Shown: one piece after another, positions 1 through 24,214 of the stretch | Position numbering within the stretch: position 1 is the stretch's first letter | How the letters are laid out: each line of letters begins with the position of its first letter | Assembly (NCBI GenBank): GCA_021432635.1 | Contig: MU270031.1 | Coordinates: 374,118 to 438,117, forward strand | Direction of reading: 5' to 3' | Source: Thozetella sp. PMI_491 | Lineage: Eukaryota > Ascomycota > Sordariomycetes > Chaetosphaeriales > Chaetosphaeriaceae | Length of the DNA: 64,000 nucleotides | Position numbers and translations under genes: made by a program | Notes under the pieces: model-generated | The model's database searches: none | What the model saw: only the letters and a program-made list of their open reading frames with translations | What the model was told of the DNA's origin: nothing

Positions 1-2048
1 GTGGCCTGACGAGGGCCGCTTTTCTGGAGTTTCCGGGAAACGACGGGGGACCCCCTCCCTTCCTACCAATGGTCTGGATGCACTCGGAAATTTCAGGTGC
101 CCGGTGGTGGGCGAGTGGTCGACGAATCCGAGTTTGCCGAATAGGGCACCCCCGGGGGGGGGAGGCATTGACTGCAGTTTTCCTGCGACCATCTGCTAGC
201 ATGTACGCCATCCTGGCTTGCTCGGGCACATAGTTCAGAGACAAAGTCTAAATGTGTTGTTGCTTTAACGGCTATAGAAACGAGACAGTACCGACAGTAC
301 CCCGTAACCGCCACCCCAACAAGGACCCTTTTGAGGGATTGGGGATCTTGGCCTTTGGGGCTCCCTCCACTAAAACTCCGGTGGGTGGCCCCCCACGGTG
401 GGGAACCTAATTGCCAGGAGCGGGCTGTCGCATGGTTTTTTTTTACGCGCAAGAGCGACCCGCTATAGGCGCTGACTTAGCTGCCCTGGTGAGCCCGGCC
501 CGCCAAGCGAGCCTGCATCTAGTAGTGGTACCGAGAAGGTGTGATGCTTGTTGTGCCTTCCAGAACAAGTAGGTAGGCTGCACTTTGGCATTGCACAAGA
601 AGGCAAAAAAGTAAACACGCAAAAAGGTAAAAATCCCTAAAAGCCCAAAAGACAGCGAGAGAAAGAGAGAGAGAGGGAGAGACAGAAAGATGCCCAGCAA
701 GAGAGTAGTGCCGCCGGCCGGGACCGATCCAGCTTCATCCCGGTAATCTCTGCTTCCTCAATGGGAGGGCAGTGCTCCAGAAGTCGCATTGGCATCTGGC
801 GTGCAGATCGCGGGACAATTCGAGTAGCATCCAAGCTACTTGGGCAATGGCCTGGAAGCTGGCACGCTTCAAGGTGCCTGAGTGCCCCGGCGGCGCCCGC
901 GCCTTTTTTTCCCTCCACTGACAGTCGGCCGTTCTCGTCTAGGCGTCCCGCCCCGACGAACGAGCATAGAGTTGATTTTAAGACGTATTCTCCCTGCCAC
1001 GCCACTGGCCCCCGGGCCTCGAGCCAGTCAAGCCAGTCCCGCGCGCCGCCCACCACCGGGACCCTGGTTCGTCGCTAATAACCCGGGCTCCTTATTGCAT
1101 CGATCGACTGGGGCCAGGTCCCATAATACATACAAGTCCTGTCCTGTTCGGTTCCAGCAGGGGCACGAGGGAGTTACAGCAAGTCGGGGAAATATTTACG
1201 GCTGACCTTTGCGTTGGAACGTTTCGTTTCGTACCGCCTCGCGCCCCCTTTTCCGACATCCCGTCTTCTCTTTTATAACCATCCCAGGCCCCCCGCATTT
1301 GACCGCGTGAGCAAGAGAGCTGGTGCGCGCCCGCGTGCGAGAGTACGAGTGAAGAAGGAACCAAGCGAGCAAGTGCGTGCATGCGCGTGGGCAGACAGAG
1401 AAGGACCGAGAGGGAAGAGAGCCAGACTCCCGAACTAGATCCGATCCAAATACCCGCCCAGTAGCCGTCTCGACATTGCTTCTCTTTTCTTTTCTACGTC
1501 GAAAGGGGGGGGTTTGTGCGACCTCGACCGGCAGCAATCCGAAGGCGCTCTCCATTACGAGCCTCTGCAGCGTCCGGGGGTTTAACTGGGGGACTGCAGC
1601 GACTTTGCGCCATCCAGGGCCTTCCGCCAGCGAGCGTCGGCCCCTTGACAACCCAGAGCACACCTCACCCAGGGCCTGGGACCGTGGGCATTTGAGCCGG
1701 CACATTGCCCTTGTCGTCCGTCCTCAGCACCGCCCGGCCTGCCTTGAGCCACGCGAAAGGTCATTCCGGCCCGGCGGACGAGAGCGGCCATCGGCGTCCA
1801 GCCTCCTGCGCGCCCTCCATCCACGTAGGACCTGTGGCAGAGTGTGTCGAGCCGAGGTGCACATGGTCTCGTCTATCGTCCCGAGTCCCTCACCTACTCT
1901 CGAGGCTCCGGAGACTTGTCCGGGGCGGATCCCGTGGCCGCTGAGCGAGCGCAGCTGGCAGCGACCCCTCCGGCCTGAGCCAACGAGGAATAGAAGGCGG
2001 TGATCAGCTGCCCTGGAATCTGATCTGATCGGGAATCACACACGGAGG
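1..2048. other. Intergenic region left of the QutR-like gene
   Basis: I see no supportable gene here. The stretch has GC-rich, low-complexity DNA with GA-rich tracts (about 655-690) and pyrimidine-rich runs. The open frames present lack recognisable domains and overlap each other on both strands. The right end, next to the ATG at 2049, must contain the promoter and 5' leader of the QutR-like gene. The left edge could in principle carry the end of another gene, but nothing in the first few hundred bases supports one. Confidence 0.5.
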
Positions 2049-4331
2049 ATGGCCTCTGTGAACCAGCTCGGGGCGGTGCCCACGCCAGCGCGGCCCATCA
2101 GCATGAATGGGGTCCCGCGGGACCTCAACGGCGACGTCGATATGGGAGTCGCCCCGCCGGCCGTGGCAAACGGCACCGCATTTGGCAGCGGACCCCGGAG
2201 AGGCGACACTAGGATCGTCGTCATCATCTACGGCCCGGGGCAGGACAGCATCGTGTCTGTCTTCGCCGAGGTGCTAGGGAAGCCGCACCGCTTCAAGGCG
2301 TCGTTCGGCGATGTTGCCTCGGTCGACCAGAACTCGGTCGTGGGCATCCGGGCCGAGAGCGCAAAGTTAGACATCACAACGCGGGACCGGTCTCTGCTTG
2401 TCGCCATCAACGCCCACGCTATCGGACTCGGTATGCCGCCGGACCTCGTCCTCTCGGAGCACTGCGACTACGAGTTCCTCTATACGGAGGCGCCCTTCTT
2501 CCGCAGAGATCTCGCCCGGTTCATCGCACACACCCTGGGCCAGATCGATCACCATGGCACATTGATGGCGAAGCCGAGGACTTACTTTATCTCGACGACG
2601 TTCCCTGACGTCCACGCCGCCCTCCCTAACATAGATATCCTAACGGTAGGCTCAGACGCCGTAGAGATTCGCGTTGACCTCCTCAAGGAGCCCCTCGGCG
2701 ACGGCACCTTCTCCGCAATCCCCTCCCTCAGCTACGTCGGTGAGCAGGTCATGCTCCTGCGCCAGAGGACGGAGCTTCCCATCATCTTTACGACGCGGTG
2801 CACGAGGGAGAACGGGCGCTTTCCGATGGACAACCCGGATCTGTTCTACCAGTACCTCTACAGGGCCATCCAATGGGGTGTCGAATATATCGACGTCGAG
2901 GTCTGGCTGCCCGAGGCGATCCGGCGGAAGCTCTGGGAGCAGAAGGGCAACAGCCGCATCATGTCGGCCTTCCACGACTTCTCCGGCACCTTCAAGTGGC
3001 CATCCCGTATGGCGGAGAACATCTTCCTCGAATCCCGGCGATACGCCGACATAGTCAAGATGATCACCATCATCAGCGATCACAATGAAAACTTCGAGCT
3101 TGAGTACTTCCGCTCCAAGATCCGGACCGAGTACCCCAACTCGCCACCTTTCTCCGCTGTCAACATGGGCGAGACGGGCCAGTTCTCGCGCACACAGAAC
3201 CCAGTCTTCACCCCTATCACTCACCCTCTGCTGCCCATCATCGCCGCCCCCGGCCAGATGAGCGCCGCTGAGATCAACCAGGCGCTCGCCCTGCTGGGAC
3301 AGCTGCCAAAGAAGAGCATATATGGCATCAGCAGCCCCTCCACACGCAGCGCGACGCCGCAGGCGCCCTTCTTCGAGAAGTGCTTCAACGAACTCGGCCT
3401 ACCGCATCACTTCGCCGTAGTCGAGCGCCAGCCGCGGGGATCGGGCTGTATGGAGGCATGGTGCAACCAGAAAAACTTCGGCGGCGCCTACCTCGCACCG
3501 GCCGTCTCGCTCCCACATCTGGTTGGTCATAGCAGCTTCTTCGCCGGGCTCAACAGCAGCACCGGCCCCGTGCTCACCGAGGCCGCGCGTGTGATTGGCA
3601 TGATCGATACCATTGTCGTCCGGTCCGACCCTGCTCGCTCGGCCTCCTCGGCGCCGCCGTCAATACCGTCCAGCCCGCGCCAGCATCACGCAAACGGGGA
3701 CTCGTTCGGGGCGTTCGCCGCCACGCAGTCCGGCCTGCCGCCCAACACGACGCTGGTCTTTGACAACGCCTCATGGCGTGGCATCCTCAGCACGCTAACG
3801 CGTGACATGGCGCCGTCGGCGTACTTTGGCCGCGCCGCCGTCGTGCTGGCGTCCTCGTCCGACGATGCCGCTAGCGTCATATACGCGCTGAAGGCGCTCA
3901 AAATCGGTAGGGTCTACACGGTGGGCTTCAAGACCCCGGCAGCGCTCACGCGGGACCTGCCAATCGAACCGTTCAACAGCCTTGAGTCGCTGCAGCGAGC
4001 GCGGATGGGTGGGGCCGACGATGCTGCGCCGTTCGTGATTGTCAGCGCGCTCGGCCCGGAGAAGAGCAACCTCGTGGGCATGTTGGTGAAGCTGTTCGGC
4101 TCGCGCGGCCCCGCGGGCAGCAACTCGCGCAAAGTCTTCCTAGACCTGGCCGACGTCACCGGCTCCCGGCGGGGCGGCGACCCCGGTCTAGTCGCCGAGC
4201 AGAGCGGCTTCGCGGCATACGGGCTGGCCGACGTGACGGCGTTCACAACGGTCGAGACTCTGCGGCTGCTGGTGGGACAGAATGTCCCATACAGCTTCGT
4301 GCGACTGGCGAGCGGACGAGGGCTGTATTGA
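2049..4331 (+). CDS. Quinate-repressor-like protein (QutR/Qa-1S family, AROM-derived)
   Basis: Single-exon gene for 760 aa. It shows the three-domain order of the C-terminal half of the AROM polyprotein, as in the quinate pathway repressor. Residues ~50-165 are a shikimate-kinase-like domain whose P-loop is degenerate (GPGQDS at 62-67, no Lys). Residues ~170-380 are a type I 3-dehydroquinase domain with the family His (H309 in AFHDF) and Schiff-base Lys (K337 in DIVKMIT), 28 residues apart. Residues ~385-760 resemble shikimate dehydrogenase, but NTDW is replaced by NASW (573-576) and the catalytic Lys region reads VSLPHL. In Aspergillus and Neurospora such a protein (about 900 aa) binds the quinate activator and represses the pathway. 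This copy is shorter at the N-terminus and no quinate catabolic genes are nearby. The repressor role is inferred from the family; residual dehydroquinase activity is possible. Confidence 0.8.
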
Positions 4332-7300
4332 GACGATGGGTTGTCGAAATTGCGGAAGAGCGCAAGCATCGGTCAAGAAGCTAGGCATGTCGGCTCGAGA
4401 AGTCTCCTTGGGGCCGACTAGGGAAGGGATGCTAATGTCCACAGCGCCCATGAGGGAATGGAGATGGTGTATGGGGGTGCATGGAGGTGCGTGCTTGTGT
4501 GTGTGCGTGTGTGTGTGTGTATGTGTGTGTGCTTGTGTTGGGGAGTAGAGAGGGCAAAGCTGGCTGGGCATTGTCTCCCTCGTCATCGTTGAGAGAGAGA
4601 GGCAAGGAACGAAGCTAGAGCTGAGGGCTCGGGCATACTCAACCCCCCCACCCCTTTCCACCCGACCAACTGTCTTGTGCATTTACGGCGCCTGGGAGCT
4701 TCGTCTAAATGGTCATACACATCTACCAGTTTATGGCGCAGTCCTATCCCACTTTTCCTTTGTTCATACATCCCGGGAAAGGCACTTTGGGATGGCGAGC
4801 AGATACTCCAGACCTATTGATCGTTCTAGGGGCTGAAGGGTATGCGTGGGGGGACGTACGACTTCGAGTCCCTCACCGATACCCTATCTCTTTGCCCTTT
4901 TCTTCAATACTACCTTCCTCATTCTTTGCCATTGTCCAACCGTGCCGTTTTGTGCCCTCAGCTGGCCGCTCCCCAGCCATGTTCACTTGAGTCCGCTTGT
5001 CCTGCGCTGGATCCCGGTCTAGCTAGGATCATGGAATAGCCGGCCGCCATGTTACGCCCGCAGGCCAATCACCACCAAACTCTGCTCAGGGTAGAGCCGA
5101 AACGGGGCAGGGGAGAAAGGGAAGGAGGGGGCCGAAGGGCGGAGCCGGGCTGGCCGCGACGAAAGGCGGTGATCGGGCCTTGTCGCTGTGACTCCCGGCA
5201 TTCTACATCACATCGAGAATAAGCACTGCACCCCGAGAGGCGAGGTGAAGTGGCAAGCGGGTAGCCGCGTGCCGCATCCATCTCCTCCAGGCCTTTGATC
5301 CTTTTCACCGTGCCGTGGTCATAAACTAGGTCAAGGTCAAGACGTGGGGCGGCACGGAGCCGGGTAGAGGGAAAGTGCGGATTGAAATATAGCACCACTC
5401 GAGGGTGACAAGGACGCCACCTGGGGGGGGGGGAGCGGTTTACACAGCGATTCGATTCACCAATAAGCATGTCCCCCCTGTTGGCAGCACTGTCACCTCT
5501 GCAAGTAGCCCTCGCGGCAGCTCGCAAAACTGACGCAAGCCACGCGGGTTGACAAAGTCATGACCAAACAAAAGCAAACAGGCGTTGTGATGTGGCCGTG
5601 TGGCGAGACTCTCGCGTCTCGGACCAGCACTTATGATACGTGACCGACCCTTCCTTGGCTTGCTCGTGCTCATGGTGTATGCCTCGGCCCAGTCATACTG
5701 TACACGCCCCAGGCCCTAGGGAAAGCCTTGCGAGCGACAAGTGGCCAGGGTGGGCATGGGCATGGGCGGGTGGGTGCAGCTACCGCGAGAAAGGGAAAGC
5801 GAACAGCCGCGGGTTAGGGCCAACCTAGAGCCATGGCTCGTTGTGGCGGCAATATGGACTTACTGCCTATTCCGTGTCGGCAGGGCTCTCTAGTGTCGCG
5901 TATAAGTTGGGTAAGCCCAAAGTTTTAAGATGAGGCCCCAGACCAAACCACAATAAGCAGGGAGACAGAGAAGGAGGTAGAAGGAAGGAGCAAAGATGAA
6001 GGGAGGAGGAGCCCGTAATGAGTCAAGGGTGTGAGGATGGGGGATGATCACTACTATCTCAATCAGTCTGGGTCGAAGTCCTTTCCCGTCCAGCCTGGTG
6101 CAGAAAACACGTATACGGGGCTTCTTTCGGGGATGGCGGAGCCTCAGTGCCTATGATGGACAAGGGCCCTGGACTGGCTCGACACCCAACCGCGGGAGAA
6201 GGAGTGGCCCACGAGTAGGGCGTACTTTGGCTCTCTCGCTCTTTTTTTTTTTTTTTTTTTAATCGAGATGCTTGCGGGAGAGGGGCCATGCCGGTATCCA
6301 GGAGCCAGACTTATGCGCTCTCTGGTCTTGGGTCTCCTTCCCTTCTCAGTCTTAACACCGGCGAGCTAAACAGGGCCGGTGGGCCGAGCAGCAACGCGAG
6401 GACAGTCCGATCGCGTGGTATTGAGCATGCAGGTTGTGCATGGTACCTAGCTGGGCGCGCCTCCCTTTCCCCGCGAAATGCCTCGGCACTCGACACTCGA
6501 CTTCGCGATCCGAGCAGGCATTGAGCAGGCATTCGACCGTCTCGTGGAGGCTAGCCCCGGCATCTGAAGCCGGGTTCCAAGTTGGAGGAAGCGATGCCGA
6601 AGCGTGGACAGCATGGGAATGGCACCCTCGACCAACGCGGCGGCTGACAGCCCCGAGCGATGTTCCATCGTCCGGAGTCCTAGAGCGTAGATGCCGGTCG
6701 ATTCGGCCATGGCGCCCGGAGGGGGCAGCTCCTTTTTGCCTCGTTGACACCTACTACGGTACAGCATTTTCCATATTTGGACGCCTCGTATTGTGCAGCC
6801 AGGGAGCGCGCACGCAGCGAGAGACCCGATGACGAGAGAGAGAGAGAGCGAGCGAGCGAGTGTTAGAAACAGAGTAGAGATGAACAGGTTGGGCTTGGCA
6901 AGGGGGTTGGTAGCAGGAGCCTTCATGCAATGCCGTCACCCTTTTTATTTCTTTAGACTTTTTCCTTCTCCCTTTAGACCTAGTTCGTGTTACAGAGTTA
7001 AGAGGTGCTAGCATGTGGGGGACCTCCTCCTGTTGGCGGCGACACTAAACAAGAAGATAAAAAAAAAACAAGGGGTGGTGTGGGAAGGGGCTTTCTCGTA
7101 TTATCGAAAGAGCAAAACCCAAATCGGGCGATGGGCTCAAACGTACCCTCAAAATCCTCAGTTGACATCCCGGATAGTCTCTTTACCTGACTGGTTGTTG
7201 GCGGGCCACTGTCGTCCCCTGCTTGCTCTGGGCCGCCCCCCTTTCCTGCAGCAGTCCTGGATTAGTACTCGATTACAGCATCCAAGTCGATCGGCTCCTC

Positions 7301-10300
7301 GGCCCCAACTTTATTTCTGCATCAAAAAGAAATCCAGGTCGCCACTGTATCGCTTAGTCCCTTTGCAGGGCAGGGAAGCAGGGCGGCTCATCGACCCTGG
7401 GGTCCCGTCCCGTCTCCCCTGAAGGGAGGGGGGTGGAAGCGGACGGTTGGGCGGCCGAGATGGTCCTCCACTCTTCAGTCCTCGTGCCTCCACTCGTTAT
7501 ACTACAGTACCCGGTACCGCCCTGTGATATGCCAGGCCCATCCATACACCAGGGACCATCGGGCCACCCGTGGACGGGGTTGGTCCGGCTAGATACGTGG
7601 GGTGTACGGGCGGGAGGATGCGGGTGGAGGCTCAACCTTGTCTCGCACCCTTCCTCGTGGAACCTGTGGGACGCCTGCAAATCCAAAACAAGCCGTGTTC
7701 GCAGTGAAATGAGCCCTACCCTCCTCGACAGAGTATACGTGGAGAGCGCGTCGGGTCGGCCCCAGGCTTGTGCCCTGCTGAAATGTCACTTGTCTGGGAC
7801 GGAAATGAGCAGCGCGTCGGATTGACTGCCCAGGCTAGCGCCCAGCCTGACGTCGAGCCCATGGCATGTCCCGAATTTGGTCGCCCTGGCCTGGGCCTAT
7901 CCCTCTTGCAGGTTGGTAACCGGCCGAACCCAGCAAGCCAAGTTGGGCCTTTCGGCACCTGAGAAAAGGCACTCGAGTAAGGCTAGGGGCGGGCGACTAT
8001 AGAAGTCCGCACCCCGGTGCTAGGCAATAACAGCGCCCTAAGATGGGTACTTTCTAGGGAGAGGGCCAAAGACCTCGCACCGAGTGTGGGGTCGGGGTCG
8101 ACCACAGCGCGGTGCGGCGCACCTTCCCATCAGCTGCTTGATGAAGTGCATATCATCGCATGTCCCACCCTTTCCCCAGAATTTTGAGAAGGGCCGATCT
8201 GAGAACCGTTCGACGGATGCTACCCCCGAACTGATTGTCAAGTCTCCAGCACGCGAGTCCAGCCTGCCGCACCCCCCCCCCCCCCCCCTTCCCCCTCCCT
8301 TCTCCTCACTGGCGTCACCCCAAGAGGCGTCCCAAAGCGCCCCAATAGCAGCCCCGTGATCCCCGTGATCGACGTCAACGGCTTTGCTCCCCACACAAGC
8401 CGCCTTCCCGGTCCTACGGAGTAAGGGACAAGTCTTTTCGTTGTTGGCCACAGAGCCACACCTACATCCACCCTCACACACCACACACCCACCACCCCAT
8501 ACACACCTGATCCAGGCTTCGCTTGCCAAGCAACGAAGCTAGGTACTTTCTCTCTCCTTCTATGCCTCCCCCCTCTCTCGTCATCTGGCAGTCCGCAGCC
8601 TGATACGGCACGAAGTCATACCGTTGCTTTGCATGTGTTCTTCCTTGCCTCGCTCCCCGCCTTTCTCCCCGCCTTCCTCCCCGCCTTCTCTCTCGCTTAA
8701 CCGCTCTGCTCGGCTGTGCGCGGAGCCCCCTGCCGGCGAGGCGATTTGTTGTTGATTTCTTACAAAGACGCATGGAGCTGGCCAAAGTCCGGGGAACCAG
8801 GACCAGCACATAAGGCGTGGCGATCATGAGCCTGCCGATTCGCCCCATCCCCTGGCCCATACCCGAATGGGGAGGGTTTGCGAAACAAGAAAGATGCGAA
8901 GCAGAGAAGACCGGCCAAGGCTTCGCAGAAAGGGGTCTCAACCGGCGCATCCTGGACATCCGACATGGGCCCCGTCCCCCCCTTTGACGCGATATGCCGA
9001 TCTGGAGAGCATGAGAATGCCGGCGACAGATCTCAAGAGCCGGACGCCTCGCCTCCCCTTGGCCCCTTTTCCAGCTTGTCTACCGACATATAGGCCGACC
9101 AAGCAAGGCATAGGCCGCTATGAGTACCGGGCGCCATGCCATGGGCATCGGCCCAACGACATGACATGACTCCATAGTCTGTCTCCCTTTGAATCTCACA
9201 CCCCTTCCCTTTCTGGCGTCCTGACTTCCCCCCAGCCTCCCAACCCGGAATCCCGCTCCGACCCTAAAGGTTTGACGGCCCGACATGTTCGAGGGTTAGG
9301 TGACAGCGACCGGAATGTCGCACTGCACCAGCGCTACAGATGCCCTGCGTCGCAACCCGTTGAACGGCCTCGGAGCTGCACGAGCATAAGCTTATTCCAA
9401 CTTGACACAGTAAACTATGATTTCCTTCACGGAGCAGGCACTAATGCCGATGTCCACCGGTCAACTGTAGCATGCGTACCTGGATTGCCTCCCTGGATCC
9501 CGGTGTGGGTGTGTTCCTAGGCGGTAAGCCTGGCAGCCCCCCCCCCCCCTTTCCCCTTCCTCCCGTTTGCATGTCGTCTTGATTTTGGTTCAACCGAACG
9601 ACGGATGGGTAGGGGGTTTGCCTCTTTCATACGCGCGGCACCTTCGGTTCCTCGCCTCGAAAAACGGCGAGCTGGCTCATCTTAACCCGTTAGTTCCAAG
9701 AGCTAGCTCATCCAGGGGGGGCGAGGAAATGGTGTACACAAGCCTCCTATGTAAGAACGAGATCCTGGCAGGCACACACCGCAAAGCGCGCTGACAGGCA
9801 TCTGTCTCGGCTGCCACGAGTTACAGATAAACAAGCCTCTACGCGTGGCCGTGAGGCGTTGGGCGCTTGCGAGGCTAGCCCGGAGCATGTGAGTTGGCTA
9901 GCCAGGAGGAGCAAGTCGTCGGCCCTCAAGCCCGGCGCGTGGCTGCATGAATCCGACACAGGTCATGGGCCGAGCCAGGATATTGTGTACTAGGCCACCC
10001 AAGAGGGTGTCTCTGCAGCCAGGCCGAGACCACCACCGCCAAATGTCCCCCTCCCTCCCCTGGGGCCTTTGCTCTTCTCGCTGCAGAGGATGCAGGCTCG
10101 TATGCACTTCCCCATGGGCCATCATGATAGCATCGTCGCTCTGGGGCCGAAGAGGGAAGCTGTGAGATTGGCATTGGTTGGGAGCTTTACATCCCGCTCC
10201 ACAACCCCCAAGGTACTGCATCCTGTACCCCTCATGGTAGTGGGTTTTTTTTTTCTTCTCATTTTTCCTTGCATGCCACCTCTTCCCCGCACGAACCGAG

Positions 10301-11668
10301 TCTGACTCGGGCTAAAGACGACCGCTACGCGAACGTCTGTGGGTTCTGCCAAATAGCCTCACCCGCGCACCTTACATAGTTAGGATGATCTAGCGGAGAA
10401 CACCATTCTACGTGCATACCACAGTAGTAGGGGGCCTCCGATCCCTTGTCGGCCCTAAAAGAGAAAACTGATGTACCGGAGGAAGAAAGTGCCGGAGAGA
10501 CCTCCGCTCTCACGCCCCTCCCCAGACGCCTGAAGCGTGGTCAACCGCTCCTTCATCTCTCGCCAGTGGGTCGACGAGCCGCGCGGAAGAGATCAACTTG
10601 ACCCTTGGAACCGGGAGTCTGGATTCCATCCATCGATTAAGATCTCGGGAGATTGCGAATTGCAAATCTCATATCACATCTACAGCTTGCTCAGGTTGGG
10701 AAAGGGCCGGGGTTTCTTTTGATGGCATTCTGAAGTAAACGAGCCAGGACCGGTGGCGCCAGGACCGCACGTCGTCTTACTCCCGGATGCACCCCCCCTT
10801 TTCCCTCGCAACACTGCCGCCATCACATCCTCACCACCCCTTGCTGGACGTACCAGCCGAACGAGCCGAACGAGACAGCACGTTGAGAGCCCTCGCGTGG
10901 TATCGCCACTACTGTACTTTCCGGGACCGCATGCGCACACCCAGGCGCCCCCCAGCTGCACAAACCTGATATTCCCTGTCCGTGGTTGAGACGAGCTAAC
11001 GGCTGTTGGGGTGGCCTGCCCCGTCAACTTACCTTAGCAGGCGCCTACCCAATCGACCGGCCACCGAGCGTTACCCCAAGTCTGCAAGGCCTCCCTAGGA
11101 CAGACCCTGCGGCCCTGTGGGAACCCAACCGAATCCGTCCACAGCGCCGATCCACTCCACCGACGGGGGGTGGTGGTTCTGGTCTCCTGTGCTAGCGAAT
11201 CGCAACCAGTTCCCCCCCCAGCTCCAGGACCGGCCTCCAAAAAGTGTATACCTACTGGACCTAGCCACCTCCACACGCCCGAGATGCTCTAAAGAACCCT
11301 AGTCCTTTCGAGCTTTACTCATCGTCCAAACCCGGGCACTCTCGACATTGACGTCGTCTCTCGTGCTCTTGTCCTCCTAGCACATCAAGACTCAACTCTC
11401 TGTCTACTCCATTACTTACTGTCCGCCCTTAAACCCAACTGAAAGCCGGGCCCAGAACGTCCCCAGCCGGTCCATCTCTTTGCTACACATCTCTGCGCGA
11501 GAGAGAGAGACCGGTAGCAACCGACGTCTGCCGAGGTCCCGCACGATCATGCGCAACATCGGCCGTTGACGAATGGCAACACTAGGCTTCTCCCAGTAGT
11601 TGGTGTCGACGTCCCTCGCCCCGTGCCTCTCTTGTTAGTCGAGGCATAGTTAAGAAGAAAAGGCTGCC
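4332..11668. other. Gene-poor region (~7.3 kb) upstream of the Zn2Cys6 regulator
   Basis: No open frame here has a recognisable domain or a convincing exon structure. Visible elements are a GT/TG microsatellite (about 4492-4546), a 20-base T run near 6241, a GA tract near 6838, C runs near 8273 and 9538, and many pyrimidine-rich stretches. The right part must carry the promoter and leader of the transcription factor starting at 11669, and the left part the 3' end of the QutR-like gene. A non-coding RNA or a long spliced leader is possible, but the sequence alone does not show it. Confidence 0.5.
4492..4546. repeat. GT/TG microsatellite
   Basis: Imperfect (GT)n tract interrupted by GC and AT steps, about 150 bp after the stop codon of the QutR-like gene and probably in its 3' UTR or just beyond. 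Simple-sequence repeat with no further information. Confidence 0.8.
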
Positions 11669-14600
11669 ATGACGACCCTCGAACCTATTGCTCTCGCACC
11701 ACACCCCACCATGCATCCAACCACCATGTCTCGCCCACAGGTCGGGATCGAGCGGCTGCCCACCAGGCGGATGAGTAACGAGCCACGCGAATCCATGAAC
11801 TGCAAATCTTGTCGAAAACGCAAGGTAAGGGACCACCGCCGTGTCGGCCAACATTATGCTGCAACGACCACTAGAGATGGAGATCTTGAAGGACGGGATG
11901 CTCGAGCAAATGCTAACCGGCCCTGTGCCTCACAGATTAAGTGCAACCGACTCCGCCCAGCTTGCGAGGCTTGCACTGTCTTTCAATGCCCGTGCATATA
12001 CGGTATGGCCAGCTTCTGTTTATCCTGCCGAGTCGAGATTTTGCCGCGTAGAGATGTCCTGTCATTGCCCAAGGTCTGGGCTGTAGGGACTCGAGTCGGT
12101 GCTAGTGCACCAAGCTTGCACGCATGCAGATTTCCGTGCACGAGACTGACCGCCAACGATGGTAGATGCCGTCCCAAAGAAGAGAGGACCCAAGACAGAC
12201 GTTTTAGAGGCGTTGCTTAAGAGGGTCGACGGACTGGAGGCGCAGCTGAAGGAGAAGAAAACGGAACCACAGACACCCATCTCCCCGCCAGCAGCGACCG
12301 ATGACGGATCCTCCAGCTCCAAGACCATGTCGGAGCCAGCCAGCAAGCCAGCCCTGCCGGCGCTCGACACGAGCCGTACCCCGGACAACGGCGAATCTGC
12401 CATCTATTCTCCAGTGGTCATGAGGTATGTGAACACCAAGGCCGGCAGAGGGTTGAATCGGAGTCTTGGACGGCGCAAGGCGTGCCTAACACTCTTCAGG
12501 GCCCCGTCACCAACTATCTCAACCGACGCCATGCTCGACACATACTTTGCTCGATTTCATGCTAAGCCTTACCACATTCTTGACGAGTCCGCCTTACGGC
12601 AAAGGTTGCAACTGAACCAGATCCCCGCGTACCTTCTGCACTCTATCTTTGCCGTTGCTGCTCGGTAAGTTCCAGCTCTGTAGCTGTTGTCGAGGACCGA
12701 CCTGCTAATACTTTTCAGGTACACAAGCCACCCGAACGGATACCAAGCGGCCGTAAGACTGGGCGAGATGTATGCGACGCGAGCGAGAACCGAGATCGAC
12801 ATCGACGAGCCCTCAGTGGATGCACTGCAAGCCTTGCTACTTCTGGTCACCTCATTCACGGCGGCCGGGAAGGGAAAGAAGGCCTATATGCTTCTGGGTA
12901 TGGATTTTCATCTTCCTCCTCTGGCTCGGTCTTCATTTAACCTAGCTGATGCTAACTGTATGCCCTGAAGCCAACGCAATTGGAATGGCTGTCGCCCTGG
13001 AGCTGCATCGAGAGATGGATATGGCCGCAAGGGTGACTCCGGTCGAACGAGAGATGCGAAGGCGATTGTTCTGGACGTGCTACCTCCTCGACCGATTCAT
13101 GGCGTGCGGCTCAAAACGACCATCACTTATCGGCGACAAAACCATCCTGCTACGGCTGCCCAGCTGGTCCCCAAACCCGTGCGCACTACCGGTCGAAGGC
13201 GAGTTCTTCCAGAGCGGGTCGAACTTGCAACACTTCCAGGGCAGTGGAAAGAAGTCCCAAGGAAGCAGCGGCATGCTTATCGACATTAGCCGCATCCTCG
13301 GCGTGACGAACCGGTACCTGGCTGCGGGGGGCGTGAAAGGGGACTCGCACTTCCCTTGGCATTCGCTGTCTAACCTTTCGAGGATTCGCCAAGACCTCGA
13401 TGTCTGGGCATCCGGAACGGCCGAGGTCTTCTCAAGCGTCGACGCCTTGTTCGGGCAGCCGGATTCCACCGTTCTGGTGATGAGCAAGTTGATCTACCAT
13501 CTCATTCACTGCTTGATTTACCGGCCCTTCCTTCCTATCGACCTCTCCGAGCTAGCCGGCTCTGGCCAGCACCAGTCGTGGCAGATAGAGGCTACCAATA
13601 TGTGCTTTATGCACGCCAACGCTATCGCCGAGCTTGTGGACCTCGGGAAGCAGACGAACACCATCGAGTGGCCCGCCTTCGTCGGCTACTGCATTGCCAC
13701 AGCTGGAACTGTTCACATTCACGGTGCGCACTACGGTGACACTGGGGAGGTAAACGCCTTTAGCTCCTCGGCAGACTTCCTGTCGAGGGAGATGCAGCAG
13801 CTCAACGATCTGCGCTTCGCATGGGCTAGCATTCAACATCAACGAGAGACGCTAGAGTCAATATACAATGCGCATTCTGAGTTGGCCAAGAGCCTCGCCA
13901 GCAACTCGACCCGGTTCTCGCCCGTCTTCCATCTGGAAGACTTCTTTGACCGATACTCAAACATAGGCGGGCCTGGCGGGCCAACCTTCAGTTTCGATGC
14001 GGCAAACCTGAGCTTGTCTGACGTCGTCATCGACTTTGCCGCAGAAGCCTATCACGACCACGACATGTACTCTACCCACCTAGGAAATGGTGCTGCCCAG
14101 CCCAGCCAAGAGCGCCAGAATCTGAAGCGCAAGATGGCAGGGCCGGCAGGCCGTAGACGCTCGGAGCTCAAGAGCATCCAGCCTATTCCGGGCGGCCTCG
14201 GGCAGGCTTCCAACTCTGGCCTCCCAACCCCGTCTCACCCCCAGCACCTCACGTTCCCGCACTCGCTATCTCCACAGCCATCTCCGGGCATGCTACACTC
14301 TCCGGCATCCCTGCCACCGCACCATGAGATGCACGAGCAACAGCAAAGCTCTCATATGGAGGGCCTACGCGACTCAATGGAGGACAATAGCGCGGTCGTG
14401 GCTGCAGCTGCTGCGGCTGGTTTCTCCCTTGCACCCACGCATCAGCATTCCGTGACCGGGATTCCTACACTCGCAAACGGGGCTTACAGCCCGCAATATA
14501 CTTTTTCGCATCTGCAAACCCTCACGACGGGGCCAGGAGCTTCCCAGCAGCAACAGCAGCAACAGCAGCAGCAGCAACAGCAGCAACAGCAATCGCAGCA

Positions 14601-14883
14601 GCAGCAACACCCGCAGGGCTACGATCCCATGTTTGGTGGCGTGCCCACCAACGCCTTCTCCAGCCCTGCCCCATGGCAGGGGGACGAAGGAAACGGCCGG
14701 CCGGCAGTGAACGTTGCGCCGAGTCCCGGTGCCGGGAGCCACAACGGAAGCACGGGCACCGGCGAAGAGAAAGACCCCTTCTTGAGCCTGCTAGAGCAGT
14801 TGGCCGAGAACGAGTCCGTCCGTGGCAACGGTAGCGAGTTCGACTTCTTCCTAGGGGGTAACTCGGGGCCTAGCCAAGCATAG
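11669..14883 (+). CDS. Zn(II)2Cys6 fungal transcription factor, CLR-1/ClrA-like
   Basis: Six-exon model: 11669-11824, 11936-12002, 12166-12424, 12500-12664, 12719-12897, 12971-14883, giving 912 aa. Joining exons 1-2 yields a perfect binuclear zinc cluster, CKSC-x6-C-x6-C-EA-C-x6-C, followed by the linker KKRGPKTD and a leucine-rich coiled dimerisation segment ([13 protein letters not shown]). The middle third is a fungal-specific transcription factor domain with the usual signature region around [13 protein letters not shown]. The tail is low complexity, with an Ala run and a polyglutamine tract. The zinc cluster plus KKRGPKTD linker matches my memory of the cellulase activators CLR-1 (Neurospora) and ClrA (Aspergillus); I am not certain of orthology, so I leave the symbol blank. 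It would act in the nucleus on promoters with CGG half-sites. The long upstream gap suggests complex control. Confidence 0.85.
14546..14608 (+). repeat. CAG/CAA repeat encoding polyglutamine
   Basis: About twenty Gln codons with one Ser interruption, lying in frame in the last exon of the Zn2Cys6 regulator. Mixed CAG and CAA usage argues for selection at the protein level. Polyglutamine is common in the activation regions of fungal transcription factors and may vary in length between strains. Confidence 0.85.
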
Positions 14884-17800
14884 ACGACACTCTGACTCTT
14901 GACAAAACACACGTCTCGCGTGGGAGTGCTCAAGCCACCGACATGCACTCATACGCGCAGACACACACACACACACATTCGATTCTTGATCATACCTTTC
15001 ATCTATGTGCACAAGTGCACTTTTGCAGCGCGAATTGTTTCTTTACGCAGGGCAGCCGCCATAATGCGCAGTATCACGATCTCATGCTTGTCTATATGAA
15101 GAACGAGCATGGCTACATGGGGCCTCCTTTGGGTAACGAACACGCAATGACCACGGATTCCGGGGAGTTTGGGAGGGCGCACAATCGATGGTATCATGTC
15201 TGTATCAGTATCAAATCACCTTGGCAACGAATTGAGAAAAAAAAAGGATGGGCACAGGGCGGTATTGGCTATCGCATGCACCAGGGCTCTCAGGGTGCTG
15301 GCTTCGGTACATATTTTATTCTGCCACCTCTGCCTGGGCAGCCCAACTGCATGTAAGCGGCAAAGTCTCTTCTGGACAGACCGCAGGCGAAGGCCTAGTG
15401 TTAATGTCCTTTGCACAATACAATCGGTACATAGTGTGAGCTTTTTCAATGGGCCAGACGGCCCGTGGCAATTATGTGAAGATCGGATGTTGATGATTGG
15501 GACGCACTATTCGCACGTGTTGCCGTAGCGGGGAGCAGCAGGTCTGAGACCGACATTTCGTGCTTCGGCTCGGCGGACCGTCGACAATGAAGAAAGAACG
15601 CCACAATGAGGCGGGAGCGTAGGTAGGTAGTAAGTAGGATGGAGAGATGGAGAGCAGGCTGGAGGGGATGGACTAAGGGGGTTATCACCTCGCTTCTGCT
15701 TCGAACCAAGCTTTCAAGATTGAACATCCTGTTTGGAAACCAATCGCAGCGTCCCGTTGCCGCAGACAATCCAGATGACGTTCACCGTTTAGGCTAGGGA
15801 TAGGCGAGGAGCCACTGAGGAGGATGCTATTGCAGTAGAACAGCTGTCGACCACCCTTGCCTGCGCTATGTTCAAAGAGGCACCTAGGCAGCTCCTTCAA
15901 GAAGGAGAAGTGCGGTACCGCCATGATAACCAAGCAGTGGGAAGAAGATGGGTGGTCCAATTGGACCAGGATCGGGACGACACGCAAGGGCGGCACATTG
16001 TGTTCCATCGGCTTTCTTTGGTCGGAATGCGGCTTGCGAATTGCGTCTAGATGCATCTTGGCAGCCAGTGTCCTTCTATAGTCGCATGCGAGATAGCGGA
16101 GCCCTTTGATGTCTCAAAAAATGGTTGTTGGGTTGTTACCCCTTATTATCGTCCCCTCCTAGGATGGAGTCCTCTTCCCCGGACGCAGAGCCAATCTGCT
16201 TCGTTCCCGTCCCCTGAGACATAACGCGCGAGGTGCCGCGGGGTTTCTTCGACCCTGGGCCGCCCGCGATCAACTTTTAGCTGAGACATTTGAGACATTT
16301 TGTCTGCCTTGAGCGGGCACCATCCTGTCTATCGGCGATCGAGCAGCTGAGCGGACGGAAACCTCGTCCTCCAGCATGCAGGGCACTTGTTCGCGGAGCG
16401 AGTTGGTCGACGGGCTTGGATGCGCCATTGGTTAGCCAGGGACTTGCCCCTTGCGGAAGCAGGAGCAGCACTTTGGCTTGGCCTATGGGTTACAGAATCT
16501 GTACACCAACTGTCTCGACATGCTGCAGCCCCGGGCTGACTTGCACTGCAGGATTACCACTCTGAGGCGCATGGACGAAGTCCCGTACGGCTCCTACTAT
16601 TACCTACCTAATTGTGATAACAGGATGTCCTTTGGGGGGGGGGAACAGGCACCAATTTTGTCGCCAAAGTCGGCGAATTCCTTGGGGGTTCGAATTACAT
16701 GGCTGGCGATCGTCACCGTAGCTGTTCCTATATTGCGGTTGAGCAGACTTCTGCAACCTTGGCTCACGTCAGACCCTTACCTCGACGGGTGCTAGGGCAA
16801 GAGGCGTTGCGGGACGGAAGCGACTACGGGGTACGAAGTGGCACCGCGTGTCGCGCAACGAGGGGGACCAGATGATCGCGTGAGGACCTGAGGGCTTCCC
16901 TTGGATTCACTCTCCCGAGTGGAGCCTGGCTTGCCTGGGGCACCAGGCTGGAGATCATCCTCGGAGGAGCGCAATATATTGAATTCTGACGCCTCGTCCG
17001 GTTCGAGTCGAGACCGGTTTTGACGTCTTCCCGCGGTCCCAGCGCTTCGGGCAAAGGTTGACACGCGGCGTTTGTGGTTCAAAGAGGTGGGCGGTAGCGC
17101 AAGCCGAGAAGACGGTTCTTTGCCAGTTCGGGGCAGAACATGCACGACCAGGCGGGACCGGTGGGGCTAAGTGTGACCTATGCCTTCTCCTGCATTGGCA
17201 TTGGCACAGCAAAAAGCCGCTCTTCGATCCGTGGAGGCAAGGTGTGAGGTGTGTGAGGTGTTTGAAGTGTACGCGTGTCTGTACAGAGCATGCCACTCCG
17301 TCGTAACGAGTCGTGGCGTCTTGCGCGTGTCTTGTTTCTGGGCTTCGGCCTCCAGCTGAGGCAAAAAGAAGAAAAGGAGGGGAATAAAAACAAAAAAAAA
17401 AAACCAATTGAATCAACGCCGAGAATCCAAAGTCATGTTTGCCCGGCTTGTGTCGACTCTGGTAAAGGTGGGTGTGTTTCCTTCCAATTGGGTCGCGGTC
17501 AGCGAGCGCCAGCGCACCGACGGCAAGGTCCCAGGTTGAATGGAGGGTTCCGCTACGGCTTTCTGATTCGCCCAGACGGCAGGCGCCTATGTCATAGGCC
17601 ACACCCACTAACCCCCCCTAACCCCCCCTAACCCCTCCCCCCCCGCCGTGGGCCGCTTGGCCGCTTCCCCTGCTTGCCTGCCTCACGAGAATACGGGAAC
17701 GCCTGGCCTGTCACCTCCGCTTTTTGCTCCTCAAGTCTCGAATTTTTCCTCCCCTCACTCGTCCCAAGACAATGGCCATGCATATCCTGCCCGTCTTTGG

Positions 17801-18602
17801 GGTGCGAGTATATTAAATCCCGCAAGCAAGACGCCTCCTCGACTCCTAGTCTCCTCGCCTCTTCGCCTCTTCTTCGCTTCAGGCCCTCCCCCATTCCCGG
17901 TTTTTTTCTAATTTTTTTTTAAAAAAAATAAGTGCAACCGGGGATCCTGTGGGGTAGGGAACACAGACGAACCCTTCAGTCCGGTCAGTGGATCGCTTCA
18001 CCGTTAGACCCAGTCGAAGAGTTTTTGGCCTCCCGCCAGCTCATTTACCAGTTACTGGCGTCATGCCTGGCAGGTAGCTTGGCTGCAGCCCGCCTTTCTC
18101 CTCTTGACGTCGGTTGCTTTCTTTCAGAGTTTTTCTTGGATTCCCTCTTTGTTCTACCTCCCCCAACTCGTGCTAGACCTTTTCTCCTACCGGCCGTTCA
18201 TATTCAACGAGAAGACGGTTGGACAATTCCGTCGGCTCGGGATCCTGTCTTAGTTCGCGCTAGCGGTGTCAGTATACCTTCCGGGGATCTTGGAGGGATT
18301 CCCATGCCACCTGTGAGGTGAGAAAGCTCGGAGGTCCAGTGTATGACCCAACGCGCCAACCTTGTTCGACATTTGAACCAGGGGAGACGCTGGTCATTTG
18401 CGGGACCAACATAGCAAACCTACACGAGCGATGCCCCAAGGCTCCAAACTTTTGTCATCAGCCCTCGGACATGCTCTCGAGTTCGTCCTCTTTGCGCCAA
18501 TGTGAACACAGACGAACCGGACATGGCGCACAAGTCAACCATTGAGCCCGCAGCTTGATACGGTACCAGCGGCAGCAGCGCGGGCTTCGCGAATCGCCCG
18601 TC
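14884..18602. other. Intergenic region between the Zn2Cys6 factor and the receptor-MFS fusion
   Basis: No gene can be supported over 3.7 kb. The left few hundred bases are the 3' flank of the transcription factor and include an (AC)n tract near 14962-14976. The right part is the leader and promoter of the gene starting at 18603, with long pyrimidine-rich stretches (17.6-17.9 kb) typical of fungal promoters. A short telomere-like repeat lies at 17608-17637. Confidence 0.5.
17608..17637. repeat. Telomere-like C-rich tandem repeat
   Basis: Three tandem copies of a CTAACCCCCC-like 10-mer, equivalent to (GGGGGGTTAG) on the other strand. The unit resembles the fungal telomere repeat TTAGGG but carries extra G residues. 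It sits inside a pyrimidine-rich promoter-like stretch, so it could be an interstitial telomere-like motif or a simple repeat. Confidence 0.6.
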
Positions 18603-21600
18603 ATGTCGACCACCATCACGGACGGCTATCCGAACCGAGGGCCGGCGGTCTTCTCCGTTACCACCGCGACCCTCGTGCTCGCCACCACCTTCGTGATCGC
18701 GCGCGTCATATGCCGCGTGGGAATTGTCAAGAATGTCAGCGCAGACGACTACATCATACTCATTGCTTGGCTGTTTGCCTTCTTCCTAAGTTTTACCATT
18801 GATATGGGCACCATGAAGGGGCTGGGACGGCACGACGAAAACATTGAGGACTGGGAGCGGCCAAGTCTACGGAGAGCAGAATACGTCTTCTCCGTCTTAT
18901 ATGTAGGTCTCGAACTGACACCTCTCTCCGCCTTGTACGCGTGCGTGGCTGACATGGTCCTAGAACCCGGCGCTTATGGCCACCAAGACCAGCATCTTGG
19001 TTTTCTACCTCCGGCTCGCCAGGAACACCCAGAAAGTCTTGCGCTATGCATCGTGGGCCGTTTTGATACTCGTCAACATCGCAGGTACCATCCTGACCTT
19101 CATGAACATCTTTCAGTGCCAGCCCATCAACGCCGCCTGGGATCCCACGGTGAAGTCGCAGCGATGCATCCCTCTTCTCACCGAGTTCATATGCTCCGCT
19201 CCGGTCAATGTCACCACCGACCTGGCGATCCTAGCCCTCCCGATCCCGGTGCTCACAGGCATGAGGCTGCCGCAGCGGCAGAAAACCATCCTCATCATCA
19301 CTTTCGCCCTCGGTATTTTCGTCGCCGTGGTCGACGTAATACGAATATACTACCTACAGCAGGCCATCACCATTGTCTCGACCGGCGCCACGAGCGACAT
19401 GTCGGCTCTCTTCGGGGACAGTGCCGAGTTCTCTTGGAACGCCTCGCTGTCTCTGATGTGGTCTGCCGTCGAAGTCAACGTCGGTATCACTTGCGCCTGC
19501 ATCCCTACCCTGAAGCCCCTGATTATTCGGATTCTTCCCGCCATGATTATAGACCCGGACGGTAGCTGGACCCGTCGCTCGCGCGAGAGCCAGCTAGCCA
19601 CCAACAATACTACCACGAAGCGTGACAGCGTGAGTGACACTGCTGCTTTCGCAGCAGTTGCGCAAGCCAACAACCTGCGGCCCCCACCCAGCGCCCAGTT
19701 ACAGGTGCCCGGAGCGGAGATGTCCTTGATGGACTTTTTGACCTCTCCAGAGTCTGTGCCACCGGGATCTCAGCCCCCAAGGTCCCCGTTGCTGAGCCAT
19801 CCGACGGCATCGACGATTGGGCCTCCTAAGAAGAACGACAGTGCCCTATATTTTGGATTTGTCAACCTAAAGAGGCCAAAGAGCATGCTGCGGACGTCAG
19901 TGAAGGAGTCGTGGAGATATTGCACGGTCGTCAGTATCCTCTTCTTCTTGTGGGGATTCTCCTACGGGCTCCTCAACACGCTGAATAATGTAATTGCCGA
20001 TGTTGCCGACATGGAACAGGCCCAGACGCTGGGGCTGACGAGTGTCTACTTTGGCGGTGGATACTTCTTCGGCCCACTGTTAGTCGGAGAGTGGATTCTT
20101 CGGCATGACGAACACCACCGGAGACACCGCAGGAGCAGCACGGATCAGGCCGACTCTCTCGGTGGTTTCAAGATCACCTTCATCGCTGGTCTGTTGATAT
20201 ACGGCACCGGCACAATCATGTTCTGGCCTTCGGCCGTATTGACCGCGTTTGGGGGCTTCATGATCAGCAGCTTTGTCGTCGGGTTTGGCCTCGGGGTGCT
20301 CGAGACGGCAGCTAACCCTTTCCTGGCCCTCTGCGGCCCCAACGAGTACGCCGAGACCCGTCTTCTTCTCGCCCAGGGCATCCAAGGAGTCGGAAGCGTC
20401 CTAAGCGGCCTACTGGCAGACAATGTCTTCTTCAAGACCATCTCGTCCGCCGACGCGAAGCAACAGAATTCGACTCTCCTACTCGATGTACAGTGGACGT
20501 ACTTGGCCGTCACGCTTTTCTGCGTCCTGCTGGCGCTCTTCTTCTACTACATGCCTCTCCCCGAGGTCAGCGACGGAGCTCTAGGGAGACTGGCTCAAGA
20601 GCTTCCCGTCGATCCCAAGAAGAGACTATATGGGAGACTGTCTGTGCGAACCTGGGCCATCATATTCGCTGTGGCGGCTCAGTGGACCTACGTTGCCTCG
20701 CAGGAATTAATGAGCATCTATTTCGACAACATTGTTGGCGCATATGCTCCCACAGATGCGACCTCAAACCCTGCGCCTGGCATGGTTCTGACCAACAGCA
20801 ACTTTCTCCTCGTTGCCCACACGGCATTTGCTGTCTCGCGGTTCGCTTGTGGCTATCTTGCATACCTGGTCGTCAAGCACCCTAATCATCGTTGGATACC
20901 GACACCTCGGACAATGCTGACAACATCGGTCTCGCTGACGATCATATTCGCGCTGATAACCGTTGTCATCAAGCCGGTGGCCCACCCAAGCCTCATGTTC
21001 GTTCCAATTGTCCTCTTCTTCCTCTCAGAGGGGCCAATGTGGCCTCTCATATTCGCTCTCGGCCTCCGCGGCCAGGGCAAGCGGACTAAGCGCGCCGCAG
21101 CATGGCTTACCATGGGTGCTTCTGGGCCTGCTTTCTGGCCCTTCGTGATATACGCGATGCTTAACCGAGGTATCAGCATCCAGACGGCGTTCATCTTGGT
21201 GGTTGCCTTGCTCGTGATTTCGCTCATATACCCCTTGTTTTTAACTTTTTCGAAAGACGCAAAAGCCATGGTCGACCCGTCCAAGGAAGGGCCGCATCGG
21301 GAGCCCGATACGGAGGGCGGCTTGCAGAGAACAGTTACGGAGCCCGACATGGACGCGATCATTGCGAGGCGTCGGAAGGAATCCAGTGCCACCCGTAGGG
21401 GCAGCAGTCTTCTCGACAGATTCTCCATCCTCGGCGAGAAGAGGAGGAGCAGCACGGCGAGGACAAACTCAACAGCGAGCCCGCCCCGGGTGGAATACCA
21501 CGAAGACCTCGCCCACCACCCGGATGAGCAGCAGAAGGAAAGGGTCCAAGGAGTGGACATGGCGCCAAGTCCGCCACGGAACAACAGCAACACTACCACG

Positions 21601-21693
21601 ACCACCGCCACTACTGCTACTGGCACTTCTGGCAGCAGTAGCGCGCCGTGGGAGGATCAGATTCTCGACACGACCATGCTTAATGATGAATAA
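18603..21693 (+). CDS. Fusion of rhodopsin/PTH11-like seven-helix domain and fucose-permease-type MFS transporter
   Basis: Two exons, 18603-18902 and 18964-21693, spliced in phase 0 to give 1009 aa. An in-frame ATG at 18555 could add 16 residues. Residues ~15-297 form the fungal rhodopsin-like integral membrane domain: an N-terminal helix set, the ADDY motif, NPALMATKTSILVFYLRL at the exon junction, and the cysteine-containing loop around FQCQPINAAWDP. A hydrophilic linker (~298-395) leads to an MFS domain (~395-860) resembling the FucP/sugar-proton symporters (FFLWGFSYGLLNTLN, GFGLGVLETAANPFLALCG). The last ~150 residues are a cytosolic Ser/Thr/Arg-rich tail. Each half is normally a separate protein. 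The continuous frame of exon 2 across both halves makes the fusion genuine in this sequence. A plasma-membrane sugar sensor-transporter is an inference. Confidence 0.85.
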
Positions 21694-22182: not shown

Positions 22183-24214
22183 CTAAGCCTCCATAGTCCC
22201 ATCGTGCTCCGCAATGGCTTCTTCGATCTCCTCTTCCTCCTCCTTGCTTACTGGACCCGTCCATCCCGTGCAGGCTTGGACAACGAAGACCACGATGCAG
22301 AGCGCTGCTGCTGACTGATAAAGCACCTTGAGGGCCGTCTCGTAGCCCCCAACCGCTACCGCCCTCTCAGCATCGGTCAGTCCGCCACCGAACACCAATG
22401 CAGGGCTTCCTATCAGCTTCTTGATCAGATGCACCCTCTCCGGGCTGAGCGTGTCTGTCCCATCAAGCTTGTTTAACCCTTCCGTAAGGATACGAGTTAG
22501 CGTCCGCGAAAAGATGCCACCTCCAATCGCCGTCCCGAAGCTGCCCGCGAATCCCCTGAAGGTCGCAAGCATGCCCGTCGCCACGTAATGCATCTCGTGG
22601 TTCACCAAGTGCAGCATGTGCGCCAGCGTGTAGTTCAGCTCAGCACCGGTGCAAATGCCGTTCAAGAAGAGCAGCGCCAGATATAACCAGACAGGGGCTG
22701 CCGCGTAGCTTACACAGCTAATGCCGAACAGCGCAAGCCCGAAGAAAAACAAGGCGATCAGGCACGGGAGCCAGAAGGAGCCGGCATGTCGGATGTGCAA
22801 CCAGCCGACGACGAGACCACCTGTCCCGAAGCCGGCGTTGGTTGCGATGAGCACGGAGCCAGCCAGGGCCGGGCCGAGGCCCCAGACGGCGAGCACAAAG
22901 ATGGGTGCGAAGAATAGGATGCTCCAGCGCGCAGCCATGAAACCCAGCTGGGCGAGGCAGGACATGAGCACACCGCGATTCTCGAGCACAGCGAGGGGGA
23001 TGATCGGGTCACTCGCGACGAGATACTCAAAAGCGATAAACCCAGCGAGGATCAGCAGAGACACTAGAATGGTGAGAGGCTGGATAGCGCCGGCGAGGCC
23101 ATAGAGAAACACAACAATAGCAGTGGTCTGCCGAAAGATTAGTCAAGCTATCGAGCGAGTACCATGGGATTACAAGGCCAGCGTACAAGGAGGAGTGCAC
23201 CGGCATAGTCGATGCCGGCAAGCTTCTGAAGGGTAGATTTATCCTTTGAGCGTTCGTGAGAATGGAACGGTGGGATGGTGAGGTAGACGCCGATCCCAGC
23301 AATAATCCCAAGGGGAGACTGAGCTAGAAAAAGCGCCCTCTGTCGTCTCAGGCGGTTAGAGTCTCCCTCACAGGTAAGAACAGGACGCTGCTGTGTCTGC
23401 CGGTCCAACTTACCCAGCCGATCCGCTCCACAAGAGCGCCAAATACGACAGCGCCAGTGGACAGTCCCACGGTGAAGCCCTGCATTGAAATGATGGGTTA
23501 GCCGGTGTCAAGATGCAGCTCCGGGCGATGCACGGCGCCTACCGCATTGCCCAAGCCGATAAACAGGCCGCGCCGTTTCTTCGACGTTAGCTGGATGATG
23601 AGCACTTGAGAAAGAGTCAAGATGCCACCACCTCCGACACCAAAGAGTACGCGACCGAGTATAAAGGTTGAGAAAGACCACGCCTGTGACGTGACAAGAG
23701 CTCCGATAGAAAAGAAGACGGACATAGCCAGAGTGATGATGCTAGGGCTGAAGATCATGGCGAGCCGACCGACCAGCGGCGCGACCGAAGCCGCCGTGAT
23801 TAGGTACGCGCTGGTGAACCACATGGCGTTCTCGTATGCGTTGAGTTCCTCGGCAATGATGGACTGGGTCATGGTCATGCCGCTGGTGTTGCTCGCTGCA
23901 GAGCGGGGTCAGCTTCGCCTGGTCGTTGTCATCACCGTCTTCGCCGGCGTTGGCGGGTTCCCCAGTGCATGCATACCTTGCAAGAAGATCAAAGCCCACA
24001 TGCTGAGGACGATGCAAGTCACACGTTTCCATCCCAGCTCGGGCCCGGCATCCAGGCCCGGCCCTCCGGTGGCGGCGTCACCGGCTAGGCCATCCTCTGC
24101 CGCTGTTACGGAGCTGGCTGTCTCGGACCGTAACAACGGAGTGTTCTCGGTGGCTGTTCCAGCTGTCGAGTAACTCTCTTCTTCCGCGAGATGCGGAGTA
24201 GTCTGGGTGCTCAT
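22183..24214 (-). CDS. MFS transporter, DHA2/14-helix type (vacuolar basic amino acid or drug transporter-like)
   Basis: Five exons on the minus strand: 24214-23977, 23895-23543, 23479-23414, 23339-23187, 23127-22183, totalling 584 aa. The N-terminus is hydrophilic with an acidic dileucine-type motif (TENTPLL), as often seen in vacuolar MFS proteins of the VBA/Fnx1 group. The first transmembrane segment follows (CIVLSMWALIFLQ). Typical MFS signatures are GRLAMIFSPS between helices 2 and 3 and LGRVLFGVGGGGILTLSQVLI in helices 4-5. The later part has the helix-rich C-terminal half with VATGMLATFRGFAGSFGTAIGGGIFSR, characteristic of DHA2 proteins. It should export or sequester a small molecule by proton antiport. 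The substrate cannot be read from sequence. The fourth donor is GTACGC, so that boundary is the least certain. Confidence 0.85.

Follow-up and report, generated by a model that had tools for sequence, protein, structure and literature searches.

Among published cases, the clearest architectural precedent for the gene described here is LYCHOS (GPR155), in which a 10-helix transporter-like domain is fused to a seven-transmembrane (7TM) domain; the protein is reported from holozoans and as absent from non-holozoan lineages (PMC12716839). Class XIV receptors comprise Pth11 and the Pth11-like proteins and are characterised by PF05730/PF20684; Pth11-like members occur with or without a CFEM domain, and fungal GPCRs are for the most part orphans (PMC13308352). 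The Pth11-like class is expanded in Pezizomycotina (PMC12842992, PMC13308352), and Pth11-related receptors are reported from Pezizomycotina only (PMC12842992). On the transporter side, the E. coli fucose:H+ symporter FucP has a putative proton-binding residue, D46 (PMC4882079), believed to be essential for proton-dependent transport, while E135 perhaps takes part in substrate recognition (PMC3824880). Aspergillus niger RhtA, an L-rhamnose transporter, is of the FucP type as well (PMC5161314). Finally, the yeast glucose sensors Snf3 and Rgt2 resemble transporters, are unable to move glucose across the membrane and signal by way of their cytosolic tails (PMC10876965). A fusion between a Pth11/PF20684 receptor and an MFS transporter is not described in the titles or abstract openings among the matches listed from the open-licence PMC literature, and the extracts of PMC12842992, PMC5425790 and PMC13308352 make no mention of an MFS fusion.

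The window, that is, the whole stretch of 64,000 nucleotides that was analysed, corresponds to C17:374118-438117 in a genome of 72.3 Mb and 157 contigs, which its genes show to be that of a fungus. A gene on its + strand appears, from the domains and frames predicted in it, to encode a single membrane protein in which a Pth11-like 7TM receptor is joined to a 12-helix transporter of the FucP type. Its features are the following.

18603..18902, + strand: exon 1, with the start codon and residues 1-100, first part of the Fung_rhodopsin (class XIV, Pth11-like) 7TM domain
18903..18963, + strand: predicted intron of 61 nt, GTAGGT ... CTGAC ... TAG
18964..19551, + strand: exon 2, remainder of the 7TM domain, residues 101-296, with PF20684 extending as far as residue 288
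19552..19896, + strand: linker of about 115 residues (297-411), rich in Ser, Pro and Thr
19897..21276, + strand: MFS domain of the FucP type (FHS, TC 2.A.1.7), residues 412-871, 12 predicted membrane helices
20107..20163, + strand: insertion rich in His and Arg, 18-19 residues long, in the loop from helix 2 to helix 3 of the MFS domain
21277..21693, + strand: C-terminal tail of 138 residues (872-1009), in which R[RK]x[ST] occurs three times, then the stop codon

The gene thus consists of two exons (18603-18902 and 18964-21693), and joining exon 1 through the predicted intron gives a product of 1009 amino acids. The ATG at 18603 is the first in the open frame of exon 1, with no earlier Met in it. 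The 61-nt intron was picked from 11 GT/GC-AG pairs that keep the frame, as the one with the most typical signals and joined sequence. The general splice consensus and the usual look of the family guided this choice; the signals are a GTAGGT donor, a CTGAC branch-like element and a TAG acceptor. With the intron removed, the predicted junction reads EYVFSVLY/NPALMATKTSILVFYLRLA. A sequence-only reading of this DNA had described the second exon as running without interruption through receptor part, linker, MFS domain and tail, and it does: exon 2 is one frame of 909 amino acids, 18964-21693.

The receptor half matches PF20684 (Fung_rhodopsin) over residues 33-288 and over positions 1-236 of the 237-position profile (E=5.5e-60); the score, 203.3 bits with a cut-off of 27, places it among the class XIV Pth11-like 7TM proteins. 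An N-terminal CFEM domain is a trait of Pth11 proper only, and a Pfam search of the 1009-residue protein at E up to 1 returned no CFEM match. The half belongs to a large family, with at least 159 exon-level PF20684 matches in the genome when 150 of 370 candidates were scored; the top-scoring other match is 32% identical. In its near full-length PF20684 domain and in its abundance in the genome, the receptor resembles the class XIV Pth11-like GPCRs, from which the gene differs by lacking a CFEM match and by bearing a C-terminal MFS domain. In a simple hydropathy scan, six of the seven helix regions of the receptor stood out, TM3 lying below the threshold. In the structure predicted for exon 2 (see below), receptor part, linker and tail are all of low confidence, since exon 1 was absent from the query and the alignment held no relatives of these parts. 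The topology assigned to the receptor therefore rests on knowledge of its family.

The transporter half matches MFS_1 over residues 502-826 (E=1.4e-9, 37.8 bits, cut-off 33.4), and Pfam returned nothing beyond PF20684 and MFS_1 at E up to 1 for the whole protein. The NCBIfam models for fucP (TIGR00885, E=1.7e-28, 100 bits) and gluP (TIGR01272, E=5.3e-20, 72.2 bits) also match, both below their curated cut-offs (280.4 and 202.55), these models being built for bacterial and archaeal proteins. Among PDB sequences, two matched at E up to 1, both of them FucP, and the domain shares the FFLWGF and LETAANPF segments with the fucose:H+ symporter family. A structure was predicted for exon 2 alone, from an alignment of 35 bacterial FucP-like rows (mean pLDDT 64.6). 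Between residues 301 and 770 of this model, pLDDT is at least 80 in 36 of 47 ten-residue blocks, and the 15 helix elements found there make up, by our count, 12 membrane helices (one of which is broken) and two short helices. When the model was used in a fold search, FucP ranked first and second among 558 matches at E up to 10, with TM-scores of 0.75 and 0.74 by target length and 0.36 by query, the latter figure being low because half of the query is something else. Both family assignments made from the sequence alone are thus borne out, by the PF20684 and MFS_1 matches and by FucP as best match in PDB sequence and predicted fold. The accompanying estimate of about 7 + 12 helices stands for the transporter's 12 by fold prediction; hydropathy by itself resolves six receptor regions and fewer than 12 transporter regions.

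A genome search with the MFS half returned the gene itself and four other FucP-type loci (on contigs C34, C67, C3 and C50; 10 matches). Around none of the four did the 8.0-8.5 kb examined contain a receptor match (E threshold 1e-3), and the claim that each half normally occurs alone fits this genome as far as the FucP half is concerned. Searches with the MFS half and with the linker found no second copy of the fusion in the genome, and the search of the same genome with PF07690, in which 9 of 1361 candidates were scored, is too shallow for other receptor-MFS fusions. Contigs from other sources were also screened: with exon 2, two stretches matched in viral contigs, and with the MFS half, 71 stretches matched in bacterial and archaeal contigs, none being confirmed in either set, which has no bearing on the rarity of the fusion in fungi.

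Of the five FucP-type loci found in the genome, the fused transporter has diverged furthest. The comparison drew on the 80 bacterial loci nearest to FucP out of 431 confirmed FucP-like loci, 48 of the 80 having at least 68% identity. In these rows 97 columns are conserved at 90% or more, a count inflated by the close relatives among the 80; agreement is 56 of 97 for the fused domain, as against 63/94, 68/97, 67/93 and 66/94 for its paralogues. A tree built on 343 columns puts all five fungal rows into a single clade (support 0.999), in which the fused transporter has the longest branch (1.75 versus 0.67, 0.91, 1.02 and 1.14). It departs from FucP in the C-terminal part at T367, G394, G402, D406 and P418 (FucP numbering), residues kept in all four paralogues and in at least 76 of the 80 bacterial rows. 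It retains E135, R154, Q267, Q274 and R312; the conservation of E135 and its neighbours in 80/80 bacterial rows is due in part to the search pattern, which demanded that motif.

At the position of D46, the fused protein has Asn, whereas all four paralogues have Asp. An Ala first seen there in one paralogue (L027) proved to be an artefact of an intron boundary, and the spliced L027 reads Asp. In the bacterial set, Asp46 is found in 62 of 80 rows, the other 18 having Gly (8), Pro (5), Ser (4) or Ala (1). Where the residue is Pro or Ser (nine rows), Asp stands one place earlier, at 45, and the remaining nine are without Asp at either position. This pattern suggests that some subfamilies may use another coupling site or ion. 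All 18 such loci fall within L085-L116. The residue is thus not obligatory in the family, and Asn is no proof of lost transport; Asn46 had been considered as strong evidence for such a loss, an argument that the 18 bacterial relatives weaken. As for the label "sugar transporter" given in the sequence-only reading, the FucP-type family holds, while certainty about the function is reduced by the Asn at D46 and by the greatest divergence of the five. On these grounds, a sensor or a changed transporter would be as likely as a normal symporter.

Two further parts of the protein set it apart. Neither FucP nor the two paralogue segments aligned across this region have the His/Arg-rich insertion; the tblastn alignments of the paralogue loci are gapped there as well. 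The C-terminal tail looks longer than the C-terminal ends of the paralogues, which measure about 35-55 residues by eye, barring a late intron. Three R[RK]x[ST] sites, a pattern chosen post hoc, were reached in a fraction of 0.0072 of 5000 shuffles; with the stricter RRx[ST] there are two sites and the fraction is 0.0396. The linker contains no R[RK]x[ST] site. Compared with the FucP family (TC 2.A.1.7) as a whole, the protein has in common the FFLWGF/LETAANPF segments, 12 predicted helices and FucP as its best PDB match both in sequence and in fold, and differs in the fused 7TM, the Asn at D46, the helix 2-3 insertion, the long tail and the departures in the C-terminal part.

Our best reading is that the fused membrane protein may serve as a composite receptor for sugar: a sensor resembling Snf3/Rgt2, joined to a receptor of class XIV. 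We give this reading a probability of about 0.42. The 7TM domain would have its N-terminus outside and its C-terminus inside, and be followed by a cytosolic linker, by the 12-helix MFS domain, whose two ends lie inside, and by the cytosolic tail. The MFS cavity would bind a sugar (likely candidates being deoxyhexoses and hexoses), with proton coupling weak or absent; the guess at the ligand derives from the fact that FucP-type proteins include the L-rhamnose transporter RhtA. Binding would shift the conformation of the MFS domain, and linker, loop insertion and tail might relay the change of shape to the 7TM partner and to G-protein/cAMP signalling. The basic-Ser/Thr sites of the tail could be targets of feedback by PKA. 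The "transceptor" role named in the sequence-only reading is putative. The likeness to Snf3 and Rgt2 lies in a transporter-like 12-helix domain with a long cytosolic tail and in sensing without transport, which is proposed here and described for those proteins (PMC10876965). They differ in having no fused 7TM, and sensing by the present protein is putative. We also take the MFS family of Snf3/Rgt2 to be different from the FucP-type family of the fused protein.

LYCHOS is alike in carrying a transporter-like module and a 7TM domain in one polypeptide and in its link to nutrient sensing (PMC12716839). The order is different, a PIN-like transporter coming first in LYCHOS, followed by 7TM and DEP domains, whereas here a class XIV 7TM precedes a FucP-type MFS; no homology is implied. 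Neither a PIN-like transporter ahead of the 7TM nor a DEP domain was found in the fused protein by Pfam at E up to 1. That the gene is a fungal hybrid independent of LYCHOS, with a 12-helix sugar-binding MFS domain as ligand detector for the attached Pth11-like GPCR, the whole forming a 19-helix receptor that would couple nutrient binding directly to G-protein signalling, is an unlikely proposal as it stands. If correct, it would give the orphan class XIV receptors a defined ligand handle. More generally, the joining of a sugar transporter to a class XIV receptor would hint at the class of the receptor's ligand and allow a direct test of nutrient sensing by such receptors. It would also provide a second, independent transporter-GPCR hybrid besides LYCHOS, built from unrelated domain families.

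A different explanation takes the fusion as real and the MFS half as a normally functioning sugar transporter whose coupling or substrate may have changed, and which the 7TM domain tethers, traffics or gates. The 12 predicted helices, the retention of E135, R154, Q267, Q274 and R312 and the 18 bacterial relatives that do without D46 (nine of them also without Asp45) are all consistent with it; the Asn where four of four paralogues have Asp, and the departures at T367, G394, G402, D406 and P418, speak against it, and we consider the explanation rather unlikely. The composite receptor, in which proton coupling would be weak or absent, remains our preferred reading.

The divergence of the MFS half could also reflect relaxed constraint, and the fusion, seen in one genome, could be the accident of one lineage. 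The open frame would then be real but the product of a chance, lineage-specific fusion with a decaying MFS half, as might be surmised from the branch length and the count of conserved columns, respectively the highest and the lowest of all five fungal rows, and from the failure to find a second copy in the genome. A decaying half would be at odds with the 598 codons of MFS domain and tail (19897-21690) that are free of stops and with the retention of key FucP residues. Codon usage argues in the same direction, with GC3 at 0.56-0.76 in blocks of the MFS half, compared with 0.70-0.82 in neighbouring domain-bearing ORFs, and a codon score of 0.12 in the MFS part, falling to 0.039 in the tail. Decay is a distinctly unlikely explanation.

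The linker is where one protein or two has to be decided. Its 345 nt contain no stop in the coding frame, as against 1 to 6 in each of the other five, and an open frame of this length occurred in 77 of 5000 Markov sequences of linker composition and in 95 of 5000 of intergenic composition. The codon score of the linker, -0.002, exceeds that of all 264 control windows (maximum -0.055), which overlap, were scored in one frame each and come from 5000-11500 and 14900-18500, stretches assumed to be intergenic and also used to train the background of the score. The sequence-only reading had raised the matter of a frame-breaking intron in the linker; none matching the one intron pattern tried is present in 19500-19950. 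In the receptor frame the first stop is at 21691, and every receptor transcript that reads on therefore yields the fusion. By themselves, the tail of a receptor and the N-terminus of a transporter would probably take up roughly the 115 or so residues that lie between the domains; two genes on the same strand would therefore have to overlap, which makes a single fused protein the simplest reading. The order of the domains is topologically sound, a 7TM protein ending inside and an MFS protein starting inside. With PF20684 and MFS_1 in one frame and a coding-like linker between them, the receptor-transporter fusion originally proposed is upheld. Two separate proteins, produced by alternative transcripts or by an undetected intron that splits the linker frame, could make use of in-frame Met codons ahead of the MFS domain (MSLMDF, MLRTSV) as a second start and might elude an intron search based on one pattern, but the absence of a stop before 21691 and of a pattern-matching intron in 19500-19950, the 77 to 95 open frames per 5000 controls and the little room that about 115 residues would leave for an intergenic region make this improbable.

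The linker has no convincing relative elsewhere in the genome (best other match, E=0.204). Likewise, the motif FVN.[KR][KR]PKSM has no second match in the genome with fewer than two mismatches, and one other place with two.

Two genes flank the fusion gene:

12150-14883, + strand: transcription-factor gene that has a Gln-rich stretch close to its end and, in ORF 12946-14883, a partial match to PF04082 Fungal_trans
22183-23908, - strand: MFS transporter gene in three open pieces, convergent with the fusion gene

The Fungal_trans ORF ends 3.7 kb upstream of the fusion gene. The description of this neighbour as a CLR-like polysaccharide regulator finds no support beyond the partial PF04082 match in ORF 12946-14883. 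A single-frame pattern search gave no credible Zn2Cys6 motif in the regulator; the lone match to the pattern was rejected as a run of Cys on the strand opposite the Gln-rich stretch. In the convergent gene, one piece exceeds the MFS_1 and Sugar_tr cut-offs and one matches MFS_1 below the cut-off. Nothing in the neighbourhood examined names a substrate.

Other parts of the window yielded a few minor observations. Over the roughly 7.7 kb upstream of the Fungal_trans gene (4400-12100), there is no open frame of at least 110 residues with GC3 above 0.69; this is perhaps a long intergenic stretch, in which small exons could escape the GC3 measure. On the + strand, a 775-residue open frame at 2004-4331 contains a type I 3-dehydroquinase domain at residues 195-428 and is possibly part of a multidomain protein or regulator of the quinate/shikimate type. 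At the edge of the window, an open frame on the - strand (63121-63945) encodes a glycosyl hydrolase of family 76.
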